Below, one piece after another: positions 34,556 to 40,397 of a stretch of DNA of 64,000 nucleotides (its first letter is position 1; every line of letters begins with the position of its first letter). A program made the position numbers and the translations under genes. The notes beneath the pieces were generated by a model, which ran no database searches, was not told where the DNA came from, and worked only from the letters and a program-made list of their open reading frames with translations. The stretch comes from Microbacterium sp. Leaf288 (lineage in GTDB: Bacteria; Actinomycetota; Actinomycetes; Actinomycetales; Microbacteriaceae). The DNA lies in contig NZ_LMNI01000012.1 of assembly GCF_001422925.1 (NCBI RefSeq), forward strand, positions 124,345-188,344, written 5' to 3'.

Positions 34556-36457
34556 CTACGCGTCGGCGCGGGGCTCAGGCTGGGTGCCGGTCTCTGCCGC
34601 CTCCGAGTCCGTGAGGGCGCGCACGAGCGTGCGCGCATCGTACGGCCCGACGTGCCGCACGCCGTTGATGAAGAACGTGGGCACCGACGTGATGTCCATC
34701 GCCTCGGCATCCAGCATGTCGTCGCGCACCCGCTCGGTCACCTTCGGCGAGCTGAGGTCCTCCTCGAAGCGCTCGACGTCGAGTCCGAGCTCGCGGGCGC
34801 GCCGGATGATGTCGGACGGCAGCTGGTGGTCCTGATCGGCGAACAGGCTGCGTGAGAACTCCGGCAGCTTGCCCTGCAGATTCGCGGCTTCGGCGGCCTC
34901 CGCCGCGGCGAGCGCGTTGGGATGCTGCCGCTCGAGCGGGGCGTGCCGCCAGACGTACCGCAGTCGGTCGCCGAGCTCGCGGCGCACCTCCTCGATCGAT
35001 CCGGACGCCTTGAGGCAGAACGGGCACTGGAAATCGCCGTACTCGACGATCGTGAGCGGCGCGTTCACGTCGCCGTAGATGTGGTCGCGCTGGGGGTCGA
35101 CCTCACGCACGAGGGTGCGCCCGCCGTCCTCGTCGGGCCGTCGCGCGTCCGAGATGCGGAACACGATCGCCGCGAGGATGAACGCGAGGACGGATGCTGC
35201 GAGCACGCCGACGCGTGCCTCGTTCTGCACGCCGGGGTCGTCGATCGCGAGATCGATGATGAAGAGCGAGATCGTGAACCCGATGCCGCACAGCATCGCC
35301 CCGCCGGCGATGCGGTCCAGGGTGAGGCCGAGTCCGAACTCGCCGAGCTTGAACACCTTCATGATCGCGGCCGCGCCGAAGACGCCGACGAACTTGCCGA
35401 CGACGAGCCCCACGATGATGGCCCATGTGACCGGCGACTGCACCGCCGCCGCGAGGATCGGCCCCGAGATCTCGACGCCCGCGTTGGCCAGCGCGAACAG
35501 CGGGAGGATGACGTACGCCACGTACGGGGAGTACGCCGACTGCAGGCGCTCGTTGATCGAGATCGATTCGCGCAGGCTGTTCGCCGCCTGCCGGGCGTAC
35601 TCGGTGTTCGGCGACTGCCGGAACACCCGGGCGAGCTCGAGCGCCTGCTCCACGTCGCGGCGATTCGGCCGGTAGACCGGGATCAGCAGGGCGATCGCGA
35701 CACCGGCGAGCGTCGGATGCACGCCGGACGCGAGGAACGCGAGCCACACGATGATCGACAGGGTCGCGTAGATGGGGCCGCGGCCGCGGCGCACGTAGCG
35801 GGTGAAGTAGATGCCCGCGAGCCCGACCGCCGCCACGACGAGCGGCAACGGGGTGAAGTTCTCGGTGTAGAAGAGCGCGATGATGCTCAGCGCTCCGATG
35901 TCGTCGACGACCGCGAGCGCGAGCAGGAACACGCGCAATCGGCCAGAGGCGCGAGGCCCGATGAGGGCGAGCGCGCCGACGAGGAACGCGGTGTCGGTCG
36001 AGATCACCACGCCCCACGCGTGCTCGCTGCCCGACCCGGCGGCGATCGCGAGGAAGAGCCCCGCCGGCACGAGCAGGCCCGCGAGGGCGGCCATCACGGG
36101 GATCATCGCGCGCGACCAGCTCGTGAGCTCGCCGATCGCGAACTCCCGGCGCACCTCGAGCCCGACCGTGAAGAAGAAGATGGCCATGAGCGCGTCGTTG
36201 ACGAGCGCGTGCAGCGTGAACTCGAGATGGATGTCGCCGAACCCGATCGTCAGCGCGGTCTCCCAGAAGTCGTGGTACGACGTGGCGGAGATGTTCGCCC
36301 AGACGATCGCGACGAGCGTCGCGAGCACCAGCAGGAGAGCGCCGGTGCGCTGCTCCCCCATGTTGCGGATGCGGTCGGCGATCGACGGACCGCGACGACG
36401 GCGCGGCTCCGGCCGTTCGGGCTCGGGCGAGCGCTCGGTGATGGTCAGCTGGGTCAT
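34556..36457 (-). CDS. nhaA: NhaA Na+/H+ antiporter fused to a DsbA-like thioredoxin domain
   Basis: The 633-residue protein joins two modules. Residues about 30-440 form the NhaA antiporter with 11-12 helices, STDTAFLVGAL and the ion-binding Asp pair in LAVVDDIGALS. Residues about 455-620 form a DsbA/FrnE-like thioredoxin domain with an active-site CPFC at about 475-478 and the cis-Pro loop SVPTFFING. NhaA exports sodium for protons and controls pH. NhaA-thioredoxin fusions occur across actinobacteria; the topology needed for the second domain (cytoplasmic or outside) is not clear from sequence. It is divergent from the trp leader. Confidence 0.92.
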   Translation of the reverse strand: MTQLTITERSPEPERPEPRRRRGPSIADRIRNMGEQRTGALLLVLATLVAIVWANISATSYHDFWETALTIGFGDIHLEFTLHALVNDALMAIFFFTVGLEVRREFAIGELTSWSRAMIPVMAALAGLLVPAGLFLAIAAGSGSEHAWGVVISTDTAFLVGALALIGPRASGRLRVFLLALAVVDDIGALSIIALFYTENFTPLPLVVAAVGLAGIYFTRYVRRGRGPIYATLSIIVWLAFLASGVHPTLAGVAIALLIPVYRPNRRDVEQALELARVFRQSPNTEYARQAANSLRESISINERLQSAYSPYVAYVILPLFALANAGVEISGPILAAAVQSPVTWAIIVGLVVGKFVGVFGAAAIMKVFKLGEFGLGLTLDRIAGGAMLCGIGFTISLFIIDLAIDDPGVQNEARVGVLAASVLAFILAAIVFRISDARRPDEDGGRTLVREVDPQRDHIYGDVNAPLTIVEYGDFQCPFCLKASGSIEEVRRELGDRLRYVWRHAPLERQHPNALAAAEAAEAANLQGKLPEFSRSLFADQDHQLPSDIIRRARELGLDVERFEEDLSSPKVTERVRDDMLDAEAMDITSVPTFFINGVRHVGPYDARTLVRALTDSEAAETGTQPEPRADA

Positions 36458-36555
36458 GGCGTACCTCCGCGAGGCGGGGATGCGTGGAAACGGGCTGGCC
36501 TCAGTATGGTGCGTAACGCGGGGCCGGTGGGCCGATGGCCGGATCGGGCGTGTGG

Positions 36556-36561
36556 TAGGTT
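36556..36561 (+). promoter_or_regulatory. -10 element (TAGGTT) of the trp leader transcript
   Basis: TAGGTT, six bases (CGGCGC), then the leader-peptide ATG at 36568, so the leader mRNA itself should be leaderless. No TTGACA-like -35 box is evident. Confidence 0.55.
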
Positions 36562-36567
36562 CGGCGC

Positions 36568-36603
36568 ATGTCCGCGCACCTCTCCTGGTGGCTCACCGCA
36601 TAG
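36568..36603 (+). CDS. trpL: trp operon leader peptide MSAHLSWWLTA
   Basis: The 11-codon frame contains tandem Trp codons (36586-36591) and ends at TAG 36601-36603, overlapping the first attenuator arm. When charged tRNA-Trp is scarce, a ribosome stalled at the two TGG codons would free the antiterminator. It is too short for automatic gene callers and is recognised by the Trp pair, the following mutually exclusive stems and the downstream fused anthranilate synthase. Confidence 0.88.
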   Translation: MSAHLSWWLTA

Positions 36604-36654
36604 GCGGTGGGTTTCGCGCGACCACAGACCGCCCACGGGGCGGTCTTCTTTTTC
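36594..36654 (+). terminator. Trp attenuator with alternative stems
   Basis: Stem 1:2 pairs CACCGC (36594-36599) with GCGGTG (36604-36609). Stem 2:3, the antiterminator, pairs GGCGGT (36603-36608) with ACCGCC (36628-36633). Stem 3:4, the terminator, pairs AGACCGCCC (36626-36634) with GGGCGGTCT (36638-36646) and is followed by TCTTTTTC. Segments 2 and 3 are each shared by two stems, the classic attenuation logic. Confidence 0.88.
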
Positions 36655-36690
36655 GTACGGGACTCCGCCCCACGACGAAAGACGATGCAC

Positions 36691-38643
36691 ATGTCCGGGC
36701 CCGATTCCCCGTCCCTTCCCGACCTCGCTGCGAGCGGTCTCCCGTTCGCGCTCATCGCGCGTGACGACCGCACCGTCGAGGTGCTGACCGGCGACGTCGT
36801 CGACGTCGACCTCCTCGCCGACATCCCGCTGACGGGGGCGTCCGGCGCGCCGAACGAGGTGCTCGCTCTTGTCCCGTTCCGTCAGGTGCGCGAGCGCGGG
36901 TTCGAGTGCCACGACGACGGTGCGCCGCTGCGGTGCCTCATCGTGCAGAGCCGCACCTCGCTCCCCCGCGACGAGGCCCTCGCACAGCTGCCGACCGCCG
37001 CGGTCCCGCTCGAGGACCCCGGTTTCGACATCGCCGACGAGGACTACGCCGAGATCGTGCGGCGCGTGATCGCCGACGAGATCGGTCGCGGCGAGGGTGC
37101 CAACTTCGTCATCCGTCGCGATTTCACCGCGGGCGTGTCGACGGATGCCGCCACCGCCGCCTTGACGTGGTTCCGGGCTCTCCTCGAGCACGAGCGGGGC
37201 GCGTACTGGACCTTCGCGGTCGTCACCCCCGGCCATGTCGCGGTGGGCGCGAGCCCCGAGGCGCACGTGAGCGCACGTGACGGTGTCGTGACGATGAACC
37301 CGATCTCCGGCACGTTCCGCCACCCGGCGGGAGGGGCGACCCCCGAGACGCTCAGCGAGTTCCTCCGCTCGACGAAGGAGACCGAGGAGCTCTTCATGGT
37401 CGTCGACGAGGAGCTCAAGATGATGAGCGCCGTCTGCTCGGACGGCGGCCGCATCACGGGGCCGCACCTGAAGGAGATGTCGCGGCTGACGCACACCGAG
37501 TACGTGCTGCGAGGCCGCAGCAAGCTCGACCCGCGCGACATCCTGCGCGAGACGATGTTCGCGCCGACGGTGACCGGCTCGCCGATGCAGAACGCGTGCA
37601 CGGTCATCACCCGTCACGAGACGACCCCGCGCGGCTACTACTCGGGCGTCGCGGCGCTCTTCACACCGCGCGTGCTTCGACAGGCTCAGCAACCGGGAGG
37701 GGCGGGCGAGGCGACCCACGACCTCGACGCACCGATCCTCATCCGCACCGCGTACCTGCAGGACGGCCGGCTGCGCGTGCCGGTCGGGGCCACGCTCGTG
37801 CGCCACTCCGACCCCTACGGCGAGGTCGGCGAGACCCACGGCAAGGCCGCCGGCGTGCTCGGCGCGATCGGCGCCGTTCCCCGCGACGCCGAGGCCGAGT
37901 CCGCGGCCGCGCGCAGCGAGGTCATCGACGAGGACGCCCCGGCGGCGGCCCCCCGACGCCTCGCCGACGACGCCGCGATCGCCGAGCTGCTGGCGTCGCG
38001 CAACGGCCGCCTCGCCGAGTTCTGGCTGAACCCGCAGGGCTCGGGCGAACCCGGGCCCTGCGCGGGGCGCTCGGCGCTCGTCGTCGACGCCGAGGACCGC
38101 TTCACCACGATGCTCGCCCACCAGCTGCGCCACCTCGGGCTCGAGGTCGAGATCTCGCCGTGGAGCGAGGTCTCCGACGCGCAGATCGATGCGGCGGAGC
38201 TCCTCGTGACCGGGCCGGGGCCGGGTGACCCGCGCGACGCGTCGAGCCCCCGCATCCATCGCATGCGCGAGGTCGTGGCGCGTCGCCGCGCCGCCGGCCG
38301 GCCGCTCCTCGCGGTGTGCCTGAGCCACCAGATCCTCGCCGACACGTTCGGCATCGACCTCGCTCCGCTCGACGCGCCGCACCAGGGCCTGCAGAAGTCG
38401 GTCGACGTGTTCGGCATGCCGGCATCGATCGGCTTCTACAACACCTTCACCGCGCGCGTCCCCGCCGGAACGACGCGCGTAGGCGAGGCGGAGGTCGCCG
38501 CCGACGCGGCGGGTGACGTCTACGCGCTGCGTGGCCCCGGTTTCGCGTCCGTGCAGGGCCACCTCGAGTCGATCCTGTCGCGCGACGGCATGACGACGCT
38601 CCAGCGCCTGGTCGAACAGGCGCTGAGTCCCGTCCCCGCCTGA
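36691..38643 (+). CDS. Fused anthranilate synthase (TrpE-TrpG, PhzE-type architecture)
   Basis: The 650-residue protein joins a chorismate-binding synthase (about 1-400; landmarks RDFTAGVS, GASPEAHVS, NPISGTFRHP, EELFMVVDEELKMMS, GSPMQNACTVI and GYYSG) to a class I glutamine amidotransferase (about 460-645). The amidotransferase nucleophile is in AVCLSHQI (Cys at about 542) and its His-Glu dyad in QGHLES. The order resembles PhzE, but the tryptophan attenuator upstream indicates a role in making anthranilate from chorismate. An insertion around residue 330 (RVLRQAQQPGG) is encoded by a dispersed repeat. An ATG at 36685 is an alternative start. Confidence 0.88.
   Translation: MSGPDSPSLPDLAASGLPFALIARDDRTVEVLTGDVVDVDLLADIPLTGASGAPNEVLALVPFRQVRERGFECHDDGAPLRCLIVQSRTSLPRDEALAQLPTAAVPLEDPGFDIADEDYAEIVRRVIADEIGRGEGANFVIRRDFTAGVSTDAATAALTWFRALLEHERGAYWTFAVVTPGHVAVGASPEAHVSARDGVVTMNPISGTFRHPAGGATPETLSEFLRSTKETEELFMVVDEELKMMSAVCSDGGRITGPHLKEMSRLTHTEYVLRGRSKLDPRDILRETMFAPTVTGSPMQNACTVITRHETTPRGYYSGVAALFTPRVLRQAQQPGGAGEATHDLDAPILIRTAYLQDGRLRVPVGATLVRHSDPYGEVGETHGKAAGVLGAIGAVPRDAEAESAAARSEVIDEDAPAAAPRRLADDAAIAELLASRNGRLAEFWLNPQGSGEPGPCAGRSALVVDAEDRFTTMLAHQLRHLGLEVEISPWSEVSDAQIDAAELLVTGPGPGDPRDASSPRIHRMREVVARRRAAGRPLLAVCLSHQILADTFGIDLAPLDAPHQGLQKSVDVFGMPASIGFYNTFTARVPAGTTRVGEAEVAADAAGDVYALRGPGFASVQGHLESILSRDGMTTLQRLVEQALSPVPA
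37676..37697. repeat. Dispersed TTCGACAGGCTCAGCAACCGG repeat inside the anthranilate synthase gene
   Basis: A copy of the repeat family also found at 8298-8316 in truB. It preserves the reading frame and adds about ten residues. Confidence 0.65.
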
Positions 38644-38766: not shown

Positions 38767-40032
38767 TCAACGACCGGGGGCCGAGCCGGTGCGGGCGGCG
38801 AGCAGGCGGCGCTCGGCCTCGTTTGCCGTGAGCTCGAGGGCGCGGAGGTCCGCGGCGAGCGCCTCGTCGTCGCGTCCGAGGTCGCGCAGCAGTGACGCCC
38901 GCACGGCGTGCCACAGATGCGATCGTGCGAGCGGGGCTTCGAGCGCGTCGACCTCGGCGAGCGCGACGGCCGCGCCGTCGACCCGTGCGAGCGCGACCGC
39001 ACGGTTGAGCCGCGCCACCGGCGACCGGTCGTACGCGAGCAGCATGTCGTAGAGCGTCAGCACCTGGAGCCAGTCGGTGGACGCCGCATCGGCGGCATCC
39101 GCGTGACATGCCGCGATCGCCGCGTGCAGCTGCCAGCGTCCGGGCCGCCGCAGGCGTGCCGCCCGCCCGAGAGCGTCGCGCGCGCCGGCGAGCAGCGCCG
39201 CATCCCACCGTGTGCGGTCCTGTTCCGCGAGCAGCACGAGCTCGCCGTCGACCGACCGCGCCGACTCGCGGGCCCGGTGGAACCGCAGCAGCGACAGCAG
39301 TCCCCACGCCTCTGCGGCGCGAGGAAGCGCCTCGGCGACCACCCGGGCGAGCCACAGCGCATCGTCGGCGAGGTCGCGGTCTGCCGCGGCATCCGCCCCC
39401 GCCACGAAGTGGGCCTCGCTGTACATCACCGACACGATCGTGAGCACGAGGTCGAGGCGCGCGGCGGCGTCCGCGCCCTCGGGAACGCGCAGGGGAATGC
39501 CGCTGTCGGCGATCTTGCGCTTGGCCCGCGAGATCCGCTGCGCGGTGGCGGACTCGGTCGAGAACGTGGCCCGGGCGATCTGCACGGTCGTGAGGCCGCA
39601 CACCGCCCGCAGAGTGAGGGCGAGCTGGGCGTCGGGCGCGAGCGCGGGGTGGCAGCATCCGAAGAGGAGCGGGAGCCGCTCATCCGCCGGCGCGCCGTCG
39701 ACCGACGGGTCAGGTCGGAGCAGCGCGACCTTGTCTCGGAGCACGCGCTCGCGCCGCACCCGGTCGAGGGCGTTGTGCCTCGCGGCCTGCATGAGCCACG
39801 CGCCGGGCTTCGGCGGGATCCCCCGGCCGCGCCACTCGCGCAGCGCCTCCTCCACCGCTTCGGCGACTGCCTCTTCGGCCACGTCGAAGCTTCCGAACGA
39901 GACGGTCAGCGCCGCCGTGATGCGTGCGGACTCCTCGCGCACGACGCTCACGAGAAGACGATCGGATGCCGCGGCCCCGCCCTCGCCCGGGTGGTCCGGG
40001 TCGCGCGGGGCCGCGGCATCCGTTGCGGACAT
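38767..40032 (-). CDS. ECF42-type RNA polymerase sigma factor with C-terminal TPR-like domain
   Basis: The 421-residue protein has sigma region 2 (about 22-95, with VAEEAVAEAVEEALREW and PGAWLMQAARHNALDRVRR), region 4 (about 125-185, with LRAVCGLTTVQIARATFSTESATAQRISRAKRKI) and a helical C-terminal extension of about 220 residues with AEAWGLLSLLRFHRARESAR. This defines the ECF42 group, which has no anti-sigma factor and is paired with DGPF-type YciI proteins. The ATG shares one base with the upstream yciI stop (TGATG); a GTG at 40035 is the alternative. The stop and last codons lie in a dispersed CCGGTCGTTGA repeat. Confidence 0.93.
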   Translation of the reverse strand: MSATDAAAPRDPDHPGEGGAAASDRLLVSVVREESARITAALTVSFGSFDVAEEAVAEAVEEALREWRGRGIPPKPGAWLMQAARHNALDRVRRERVLRDKVALLRPDPSVDGAPADERLPLLFGCCHPALAPDAQLALTLRAVCGLTTVQIARATFSTESATAQRISRAKRKIADSGIPLRVPEGADAAARLDLVLTIVSVMYSEAHFVAGADAAADRDLADDALWLARVVAEALPRAAEAWGLLSLLRFHRARESARSVDGELVLLAEQDRTRWDAALLAGARDALGRAARLRRPGRWQLHAAIAACHADAADAASTDWLQVLTLYDMLLAYDRSPVARLNRAVALARVDGAAVALAEVDALEAPLARSHLWHAVRASLLRDLGRDDEALAADLRALELTANEAERRLLAARTGSAPGR

Positions 40033-40397
40033 CACTCGAATTGGCTGTAGTCGACGACCATCGGCCGGATCTCGACCGCCACGCCCGGGAATTCGAGGGA
40101 CGGCCAGGTCTTCACGAGCTCGATCGCCGCGTCGAGGTCGGGCACGTCGATCACGCTGAACCCGCCGATGACCTCCTTCGCCTCCGAGAAGGGCCCGTCG
40201 GCGACGACCGGACCGTCATCGCCCGAGCGCACCGTCGTCGCCGTGCTGACCGGGTGCAGCTCGGCGCCGGAATCGTCGATCTTGTCGGCGTTCGTGCCGA
40301 ACCACTCGTAGATCCGCCCGTAGACCTCCTGGCGTCGCTCATCCGGCACGGCGGCGTCGAGCTCGGGGGTCGAGGTGAACATGATCACGTACTTCAC
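40032..40397 (-). CDS. YciI/DGPF domain protein, partner of the ECF42 sigma factor
   Basis: The 121-residue protein begins MKYVIMF and contains VVADGPFSEAKEVIGGFSVIDV, the DGPF motif shared by the YciI-like partners of ECF42 sigma factors. The ferredoxin-like fold resembles EthD/YciI proteins; its reaction is unknown. It precedes and overlaps the sigma factor gene. The GTG start has GAAAGGA upstream. TGTCGA 61 bases upstream is the probable sigma-dependent -35 element. Confidence 0.9.
   Translation of the reverse strand: MKYVIMFTSTPELDAAVPDERRQEVYGRIYEWFGTNADKIDDSGAELHPVSTATTVRSGDDGPVVADGPFSEAKEVIGGFSVIDVPDLDAAIELVKTWPSLEFPGVAVEIRPMVVDYSQFE

Follow-up and report, generated by a model that had tools for sequence, protein, structure and literature searches.

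A predicted leaderless trp attenuator with a candidate 5' stem upstream of a PhzE-like fused anthranilate synthase in Microbacterium

The window, by which we mean the whole stretch of 64,000 nucleotides analyzed here, comes from Microbacterium sp. Leaf288 (assembly GCF_001422925.1, contig NZ_LMNI01000012.1, positions 124,345 to 188,344 of the forward strand). It carries a gene for a fused anthranilate synthase preceded by a leader open reading frame of 11 codons with tandem tryptophan codons, both of which the sequence-only reading of this DNA had described and both of which we found in place. In 5' to 3' order, TAGGTT at 36556-36561 is followed by CGGCGC and by the leader ATG at 36568, so that six bases separate the end of the hexamer from the start codon, as had also been proposed. 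The leader codons are ATG TCC GCG CAC CTC TCC TGG TGG CTC ACC GCA TAG. The features of the locus are listed below; alignment A1 is defined further on.

36551..36561, forward strand: extended -10 promoter element TGTGG-TAGGTT, assigned from conservation in 75 Microbacterium-type leaders
36568..36603, forward strand: leader open reading frame MSAHLSWWLTA*, 11 codons, leaderless by prediction, with the A of the ATG as +1
36570..36576, forward strand: 5' arm of stem A, overlapping the third base of the start codon; assigned from the fold, own-versus-swapped tests and pair counts
36586..36591, forward strand: tandem Trp codons 7-8 (TGG TGG), the control codons, invariant in alignment A1, for which Trp-Trp was itself a selection criterion
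36591..36599, forward strand: segment 1 of the 1:2 stem, pairing with 36604-36612 in the fold
36603..36612, forward strand: segment 2, of which 36604-36612 pairs with segment 1
36603-36608 (GGCGGT) with 36628-36633, forward strand: antiterminator 2:3, its cells paired at 97.4% in A1
36615..36622, forward strand: 3' arm of stem A, located in the linker that joins segment 2 to the terminator; same basis as the 5' arm
36626..36634, forward strand: segment 3 (AGACCGCCC), common to antiterminator and terminator
36638..36653, forward strand: segment 4 (GGGCGGTCT) of the intrinsic terminator, with its T-rich tail, the 3:4 cells paired at 100% in A1
36677..36681, forward strand: GAAAG, likely Shine-Dalgarno sequence of the main gene, preceding its start in the window and in eight close relatives
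36691..38643, forward strand: PhzE-like fused anthranilate synthase (chorismate-binding and glutamine amidotransferase domains), assigned by Pfam and the PDB 3r74 match

Two neighboring loci lie on the reverse strand. At 34556-36457, an NhaA sodium/proton antiporter with a DsbA-like thioredoxin domain fused at its C terminus is divergent from the trp leader, with 110 bp between its start and the leader ATG. At 38767-40397, convergent with the fused gene, a sigma-70-like protein with DUF6596 adjoins a YCII-domain protein.

The enzyme combines PF00425 (Chorismate_bind) and then PF00117 (GATase) in a single chain. PDB entry 3r74, named "Anthranilate/para-aminobenzoate synthases component I" and presumably the Burkholderia PhzE, matched residues 26-644 of 650, covering both domains, with 493.9 bits. 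The PhzE product is ADIC. Because the enzyme scores only 127.4 bits against the TrpE-clade3 model TIGR01815, below the cut-off of 739.15, it belongs to another, PhzE-like type of fusion. Its nearest named relative is from Microbacterium trichothecenolyticum (97% protein identity). For the start of the main gene, ATG 36691 is more likely than ATG 36685 on sequence comparison, given the position of GAAAG and the fact that the two closest relatives (L030 and L084) have ACG in place of ATG 36685; annotation from 36685 or from GTG 36607 therefore probably yields a protein that is too long.

The general TrpE model gave four matches in the genome, none of them at the cut-off: the window gene itself, one at C11:334395, and two PabB-like proteins that fall just under the PabB cut-off of 328.4 (326.6 and 321.9). 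Since no TrpE reached its cut-off and two of the homologues are PabB-like, the putative anthranilate synthase in the window appears to be the sole evident one in the cell. Genes trpD and trpB were found in the same genome, and a search near them (L228, L230) for a second Trp-rich leader found none. Across the genus, all 99 genomes searched contain some match to the enzyme, 98 of them at E <= 5.6e-199; the exception is G044, which is 88% complete in 650 contigs and reaches an E of only 1.1e-14. Among 199 Microbacteriaceae, the fused enzyme was found in 24 (E <= 1e-60) and canonical TrpE in 175 (E <= 1e-120). Thirteen of those 24 also have canonical TrpE. The 11 without it, of which nine are listed as having no match and two (G650, G654) are presumably among four unlisted genomes, include the draw's three genomes of the window's genus.

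Upstream of homologues of this enzyme, a Trp-Trp leader open reading frame is present at 104 of 107 loci in a first set and 77 of 108 in a second, that is, at 181 of 215, the class search covering the loci that it returned and 60 chosen regions. Three loci (L019, L052, L083) had too little upstream sequence and were excluded ahead of the count of 107. Within the first set, the leader is missing at L075 (Yinghuangia), L080 (Pseudomonas aeruginosa) and L081 (Phytoactinopolyspora); within the second, at 31 loci, including L164, where the upstream sequence is too short. There are 100 Microbacterium-type loci, two of them too short upstream, and the remaining 98 all carry it. Two homologues without a Trp-Trp leader (L182, L215) have a short open reading frame with a single Trp codon and TAnnnT at 6-8 nt (VIARMSSWRPATVAAHFFRA, MFARRGLWRAVILAAVSTRA), which are possibly altered attenuators.

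In every one of the 181 leaders TAnnnT precedes the ATG or GTG start by 6 (99 leaders), 7 (78) or 8 (4) nt, in a search that allowed 4-11 nt and that, for nested starts in one frame, chose the start with the best-placed TAnnnT. For comparison, at most 100 of 1690 ATG or GTG triplets (5.9%) in the same regions have TAnnnT at 6-8 nt, an overestimate of the background because some leaders lie within its range. The 181 leaders comprise 163 distinct 110-nt sequences and are partly non-independent, some species appearing twice, from two collections; removing 35 redundant leaders and two (L076, L157) in which our script found no terminator leaves 144. Between 4 and 16 nt upstream of the leader start, none of these 144 has GGAG, GAGG or AGGA, and 8 match when AAGG, AAAG and GAAA are added to the list. 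The 75 non-redundant Microbacterium-type leaders, whose selection itself demanded TANNNT, keep the preceding TGTG at 89-95% per base, giving the promoter consensus TGTGNTANNNT. Upstream of this extended -10 element conservation is weak, and no -35 hexamer stands out among the 75.

By sequence, then, the -10 element would place +1 at the start codon and a Shine-Dalgarno sequence is absent. The spacing of TAnnnT, the lack of Shine-Dalgarno sequences and the drop in upstream conservation together form strong indirect evidence that the leader transcript is very probably leaderless. A precedent is TrpL1 of Streptomyces lividans (MFAHSTRNWWWTAHPAAH), located before trpE and reported as transcribed leaderless (PMC8079986). 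Two loci (L180, L187) have the leader MFAHSTQNWWWTAHPAAH, one residue from TrpL1, upstream of homologues of the window enzyme. Leaderless initiation, proposed earlier from the window alone, thus gains from the absence of a Shine-Dalgarno sequence in 144 of 144 leaders and from this precedent.

The stems and the T-rich terminator claimed by the sequence-only reading are also borne out, the mutually exclusive 1:2, 2:3 and 3:4 pairings all being predicted. The intrinsic terminator, AGACCGCCC-ACG-GGGCGGTCT at 36626-36646, has nine pairs, begins 22 nt past the leader stop and ends in the T-rich tail TCTTTTTC; it is the one terminator found in a scan of 36300-36900, against a mean of 0.1 in shuffled sequences. 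The 88-nt leader folds at -45.3 kcal/mol, compared with -29.7 (sd 2.97) for 200 dinucleotide shuffles (z = -5.25), none of which was as low. Rfam gave no match at gathering score in the whole window. A search of the 4.75 Mb genome for TAnnnT-N6-ATG-N15-TGGTGG gave a single hit, at this locus; the reversed control likewise gave one, so that the pattern by itself is weak evidence. Conservation across loci, as a sequence comparison, is strong evidence for an attenuator.

Segment 2, located as the earliest hit to a set of GGCGG-like words, begins 11 nt past the last Trp codon in 122 of 144 leaders and 11-12 nt past it in 136. This distance is nearly constant although that from the last Trp codon to the stop varies from 2 to 11 codons, which is what a ribosome acting as a ruler would need. 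The script's terminator is retained in the fold of 121 of the 144 leaders. From these leaders we drew two fixed alignments by leader and linker length, A1 (58 sequences) and A2 (32). The 1:2, 2:3 and 3:4 stems are nearly invariant in A1, and covariation is therefore uninformative for them. Within A1, the register of segment 1 differs among Microbacterium-type leaders (CACCGC/GCGGTG in those with WWLTA, CCGCC/GGCGG in those with WWPAS), segment 2 being the same. Past the terminator, CCGCCCC at 36665-36671 could pair with segment 4 (GGGGCGG), and a CCGCCC-like word follows the terminator at 39 of 88 Microbacterium-type loci.

The window leader was modeled with assumed ribosome footprints. With no ribosome, P(1:2) is 1.00, and P(3:4) likewise becomes 1.00 as soon as segment 4 has emerged. 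A ribosome covering nt 1-31 or 1-34, its A site on Trp7 or Trp8, gives P(2:3) of 0.99-1.00 up to nt 73, and one at the stop codon (nt 1-46 covered) gives P(3:4) of 0.99-1.00 at nt 75-80. Even when the ribosome is stalled, the terminator comes to be favored at equilibrium, its probability rising from 0.68-0.72 (nt 75) to 1.00 (nt 80); antitermination would thus have to be kinetic, as is usual for attenuators. In silico, the locus thus combines a Trp-Trp leader frame before a Trp-pathway gene, mutually exclusive antiterminator and terminator with a T tract, and a fixed spacing. Judged by the comparative tests on sequence, it is real and conserved, and probably a functional attenuator.

The fold also contains a stem that adds to the earlier description, pairing 36570-36576 with 36615-36622 and called stem A here. 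In the minimum-energy fold of the window leader, nt 3-9 pair with nt 48-55 and enclose the 1:2 stem, and the probability of stem A with no ribosome is 0.67-0.78. Four or more pairs join nt 1-12 to the linker in the folds of 119 of 144 leaders, versus 63-72 in five rounds of linker shuffling, and a base of the start codon is paired with a position downstream of the stop in 98 of 144 folds. The duplex energy of own arms is -11.2 kcal/mol, against -8.4 (sd 0.25) for swaps between unlike leaders, and none of 500 permutations reaches the own value. Single leaders are seldom decisive (median rank of the own pairing among swaps 0.11; 21% below 0.05). Counted by distinct 5' types, in a less well anchored test, the own pairing is better than swaps in 78 of 94 (Wilcoxon p = 5e-9).

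With the linker defined as running from segment 2 to segment 3, the own pairing exceeds the mean of swaps with linkers of other groups in 132 of 144 leaders, a result independent of the terminator heuristic. By group, named after named loci or the leader peptide, this holds for 70 of 75 Microbacterium-type, 13 of 15 Agromyces-type, 15 of 15 Jiangella-type and 12 of 12 Streptomyces-type leaders, and for 22 of 27 others. The own pairing likewise exceeds swaps with 5' ends of other groups in 131 of 144 and shuffled linkers in 138 of 144. The corresponding counts in the version based on the script's terminator heuristic, which starts late in 31 of 144 leaders and so blurs the linker, are 137, 130 and 140 of 144 for linker swaps, 5'-end swaps and shuffles. 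In another version, which trimmed the linker 5 nt beyond the stop codon, the own pairing was better in 123 of 144 leaders overall, and the Streptomyces type failed (own pairing -6.6 kcal/mol; 1 of 12 better); as segment 2 of that type lies inside the open reading frame, segment 2 was made the anchor of the linker in every group. The late terminator starts also blur the linker in this trimmed version, in the duplex-energy and 5'-type comparisons, and in the fold counts and ribosome modeling. Taken with the fold, these comparisons lead us to regard stem A as probably a real RNA stem. In the absence of a ribosome it would probably keep segment 2 sequestered, and it would probably also shut off the leaderless start.

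It is unlikely, in our judgment, that stem A is not an RNA structure at all, its TTCGCG-type repeats reflecting either GC-rich codon use or the DNA operator of a repressor. Such a reading would account for the many arms that are near-palindromic CGCG words, owing to which registers slid by 2 also pair in 54-64% of cells, and it agrees with RNAalifold, which passes over stem A on A1. One of the ten pairs fails in 45 of the 58 A1 sequences, and the number of pairs changed on both sides is not unusual relative to shuffles (reached in 49 of 500 for A1 and 139 of 500 for A2). Against it, the arms change together between lineages (TTCGCGAA, GTACGCGA and CGTCGAA types), own pairs exceed the lineage-swap mean in 132 of 144 as given above, and the covariation score in A2 is 0.140 versus 0.068 in shuffles, none of 500 reaching it (6 of 500 do so in A1). 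The paired fraction of stem A cells, 72.7% versus 70.4% in A1 and 73.0% versus 66.1% in A2, lies above all 500 shuffles in each alignment. An operator is further disfavored because the distance between the arms follows leader length, unlike what would be expected of one.

The two other readings concern how the leader is produced and what it does. The attenuator could be real and its leader part of a longer RNA begun further upstream, translated by Shine-Dalgarno-led initiation or re-initiation, and the promoter scan of 36300-36900, which contains no consensus sigma-70 promoter, would fit this. We consider it very unlikely in view of the 6-8 nt spacing of TAnnnT, common to all 181 leaders, the near absence of Shine-Dalgarno words (0 of 144, or 8 with the looser list), the weak conservation upstream of the extended -10 element, and the S. 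lividans leader, which matches leaders of this type and is reported leaderless (PMC8079986). Alternatively, the released leader RNA of about 85 nt, or its peptide, might act in trans with attenuation secondary; that function would suit a 5' RNA that is discrete, highly structured and ended by an intrinsic terminator, and rnTrpL and peTrpL of Sinorhizobium meliloti offer a precedent for it (PMC7298713). The N-terminal residues of the peptide vary by species, and the ruler and the stems are kept as for a cis element, so that a primary role in trans seems highly improbable. The repressor-operator and trans-acting readings are accordingly ranked lower than an attenuator with a leaderless start.

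We therefore favor, as highly probable on sequence and modeling, a classical attenuator that senses charged tRNA-Trp, governs the sole evident anthranilate synthase and has its leader read from a leaderless 5' AUG. RNA polymerase would start at the leader ATG or within a base or two of it, and the ribosome would load straight onto the 5' AUG. When Trp-tRNA is short, the model has the ribosome halting at codons 7-8 and covering segment 1; segment 2, 11 nt past the last Trp codon, would be free to form 2:3, and the terminator would not be made. When Trp-tRNA is ample, the ribosome at the stop codon is predicted to cover segment 2, and 3:4 would end transcription. Without a ribosome, 1:2 and stem A would hold segment 2 and leave termination as the default, and stem A would also hide the start codon from later ribosomes.

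Leaderless control peptides are known from several bacteria, and the combination at this locus is less unusual than the heading of the sequence-only reading suggested. Mycobacterial polycysteine leaderless short open reading frames, in work by Canestrari from 2020, reportedly act as attenuators, likewise with a leaderless control peptide and attenuation in cis, for cysteine. The TrpE(G) of S. meliloti is itself a fused enzyme, of the clade3 type. The RNA 5' end of S. meliloti trpL is the trpL ATG, with trpE(G) downstream (PMC7298713); the likeness to our locus lies in that 5' end, and the differences in the phylum and in the PhzE-like fusion of the window. In the same report, fusions with and without a Shine-Dalgarno sequence showed equal peptide accumulation after tetracycline (PMC7298713). 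This bears on an earlier suggestion, that leaderless and Shine-Dalgarno-led translation respond differently to stress and could change the attenuation response; it is the sole direct test that we found of that idea, with a negative outcome, in another organism and for one stress. The suggestion as worded finds no support here.

Attenuators of trp operons in Streptomyces and Corynebacterium were predicted earlier (PMC1262725). The closest described likeness is with S. lividans TrpL1-trpE, reported to have a leaderless Trp-rich leader and a uridine-enriched terminator region ahead of an anthranilate synthase gene (PMC8079986). The TrpL1-matching loci have 18 codons, WWW and segment 2 inside the open reading frame, whereas the window has 11 codons, WW and segment 2 at the stop codon. 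According to its legend, the 2005 attenuator alignment runs from the Trp codons to the terminator only, so that a 5' stem falls outside it (PMC1262725). In Corynebacterium diphtheriae, the ilvB leader is described as leaderless, and for its trp leader the report gives no start site as identified (PMC5784534). For C. glutamicum ilvBNC, whose attenuator is likewise leaderless, a three-hairpin model has been reported in which H1 shields the start and serves as antiantiterminator (PMC11857589). These roles resemble those proposed here for stem A and 1:2, although ilvBNC concerns branched-chain amino acids. The idea of a hairpin that hides the start is thus already known, and what is new here is comparative support for it in trp leaders; a literature search partly aimed at the question found no 5' stem of this kind described for trp attenuators, and we make no claim of its absence from print. 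In ilvBNC, as reported, conserved nucleotides are common to H1 and the antiterminator, so that comparison cannot separate the two (PMC11857589), whereas here stem A lies apart from 2:3.

A predicted leaderless trp attenuator stands before the fused enzyme at every readable Microbacterium-type locus, and it recurs in several other actinobacterial groups with the Trp-to-segment-2 ruler fixed. It is a tentative and rather doubtful proposal that stem A is a one-shot initiation lock, a design common to actinobacterial leaderless attenuators. If it were, the leaderless AUG would stay open no longer than it takes the RNA to reach about 55 nt, and the ribosome would have to load within that time; each transcript would be read at most once, and the initiation rate, together with Trp-tRNA, would set the default state of termination. 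It is this stem, with its capacity to shut off the leaderless start, that merits an experiment. As stem A shares no nucleotides with 2:3, unlike its counterpart in ilvBNC, the two can be mutated apart, and the ilvBNC proposal that a hairpin hides the leaderless start and favors termination may thereby become testable through a separate 5' stem.
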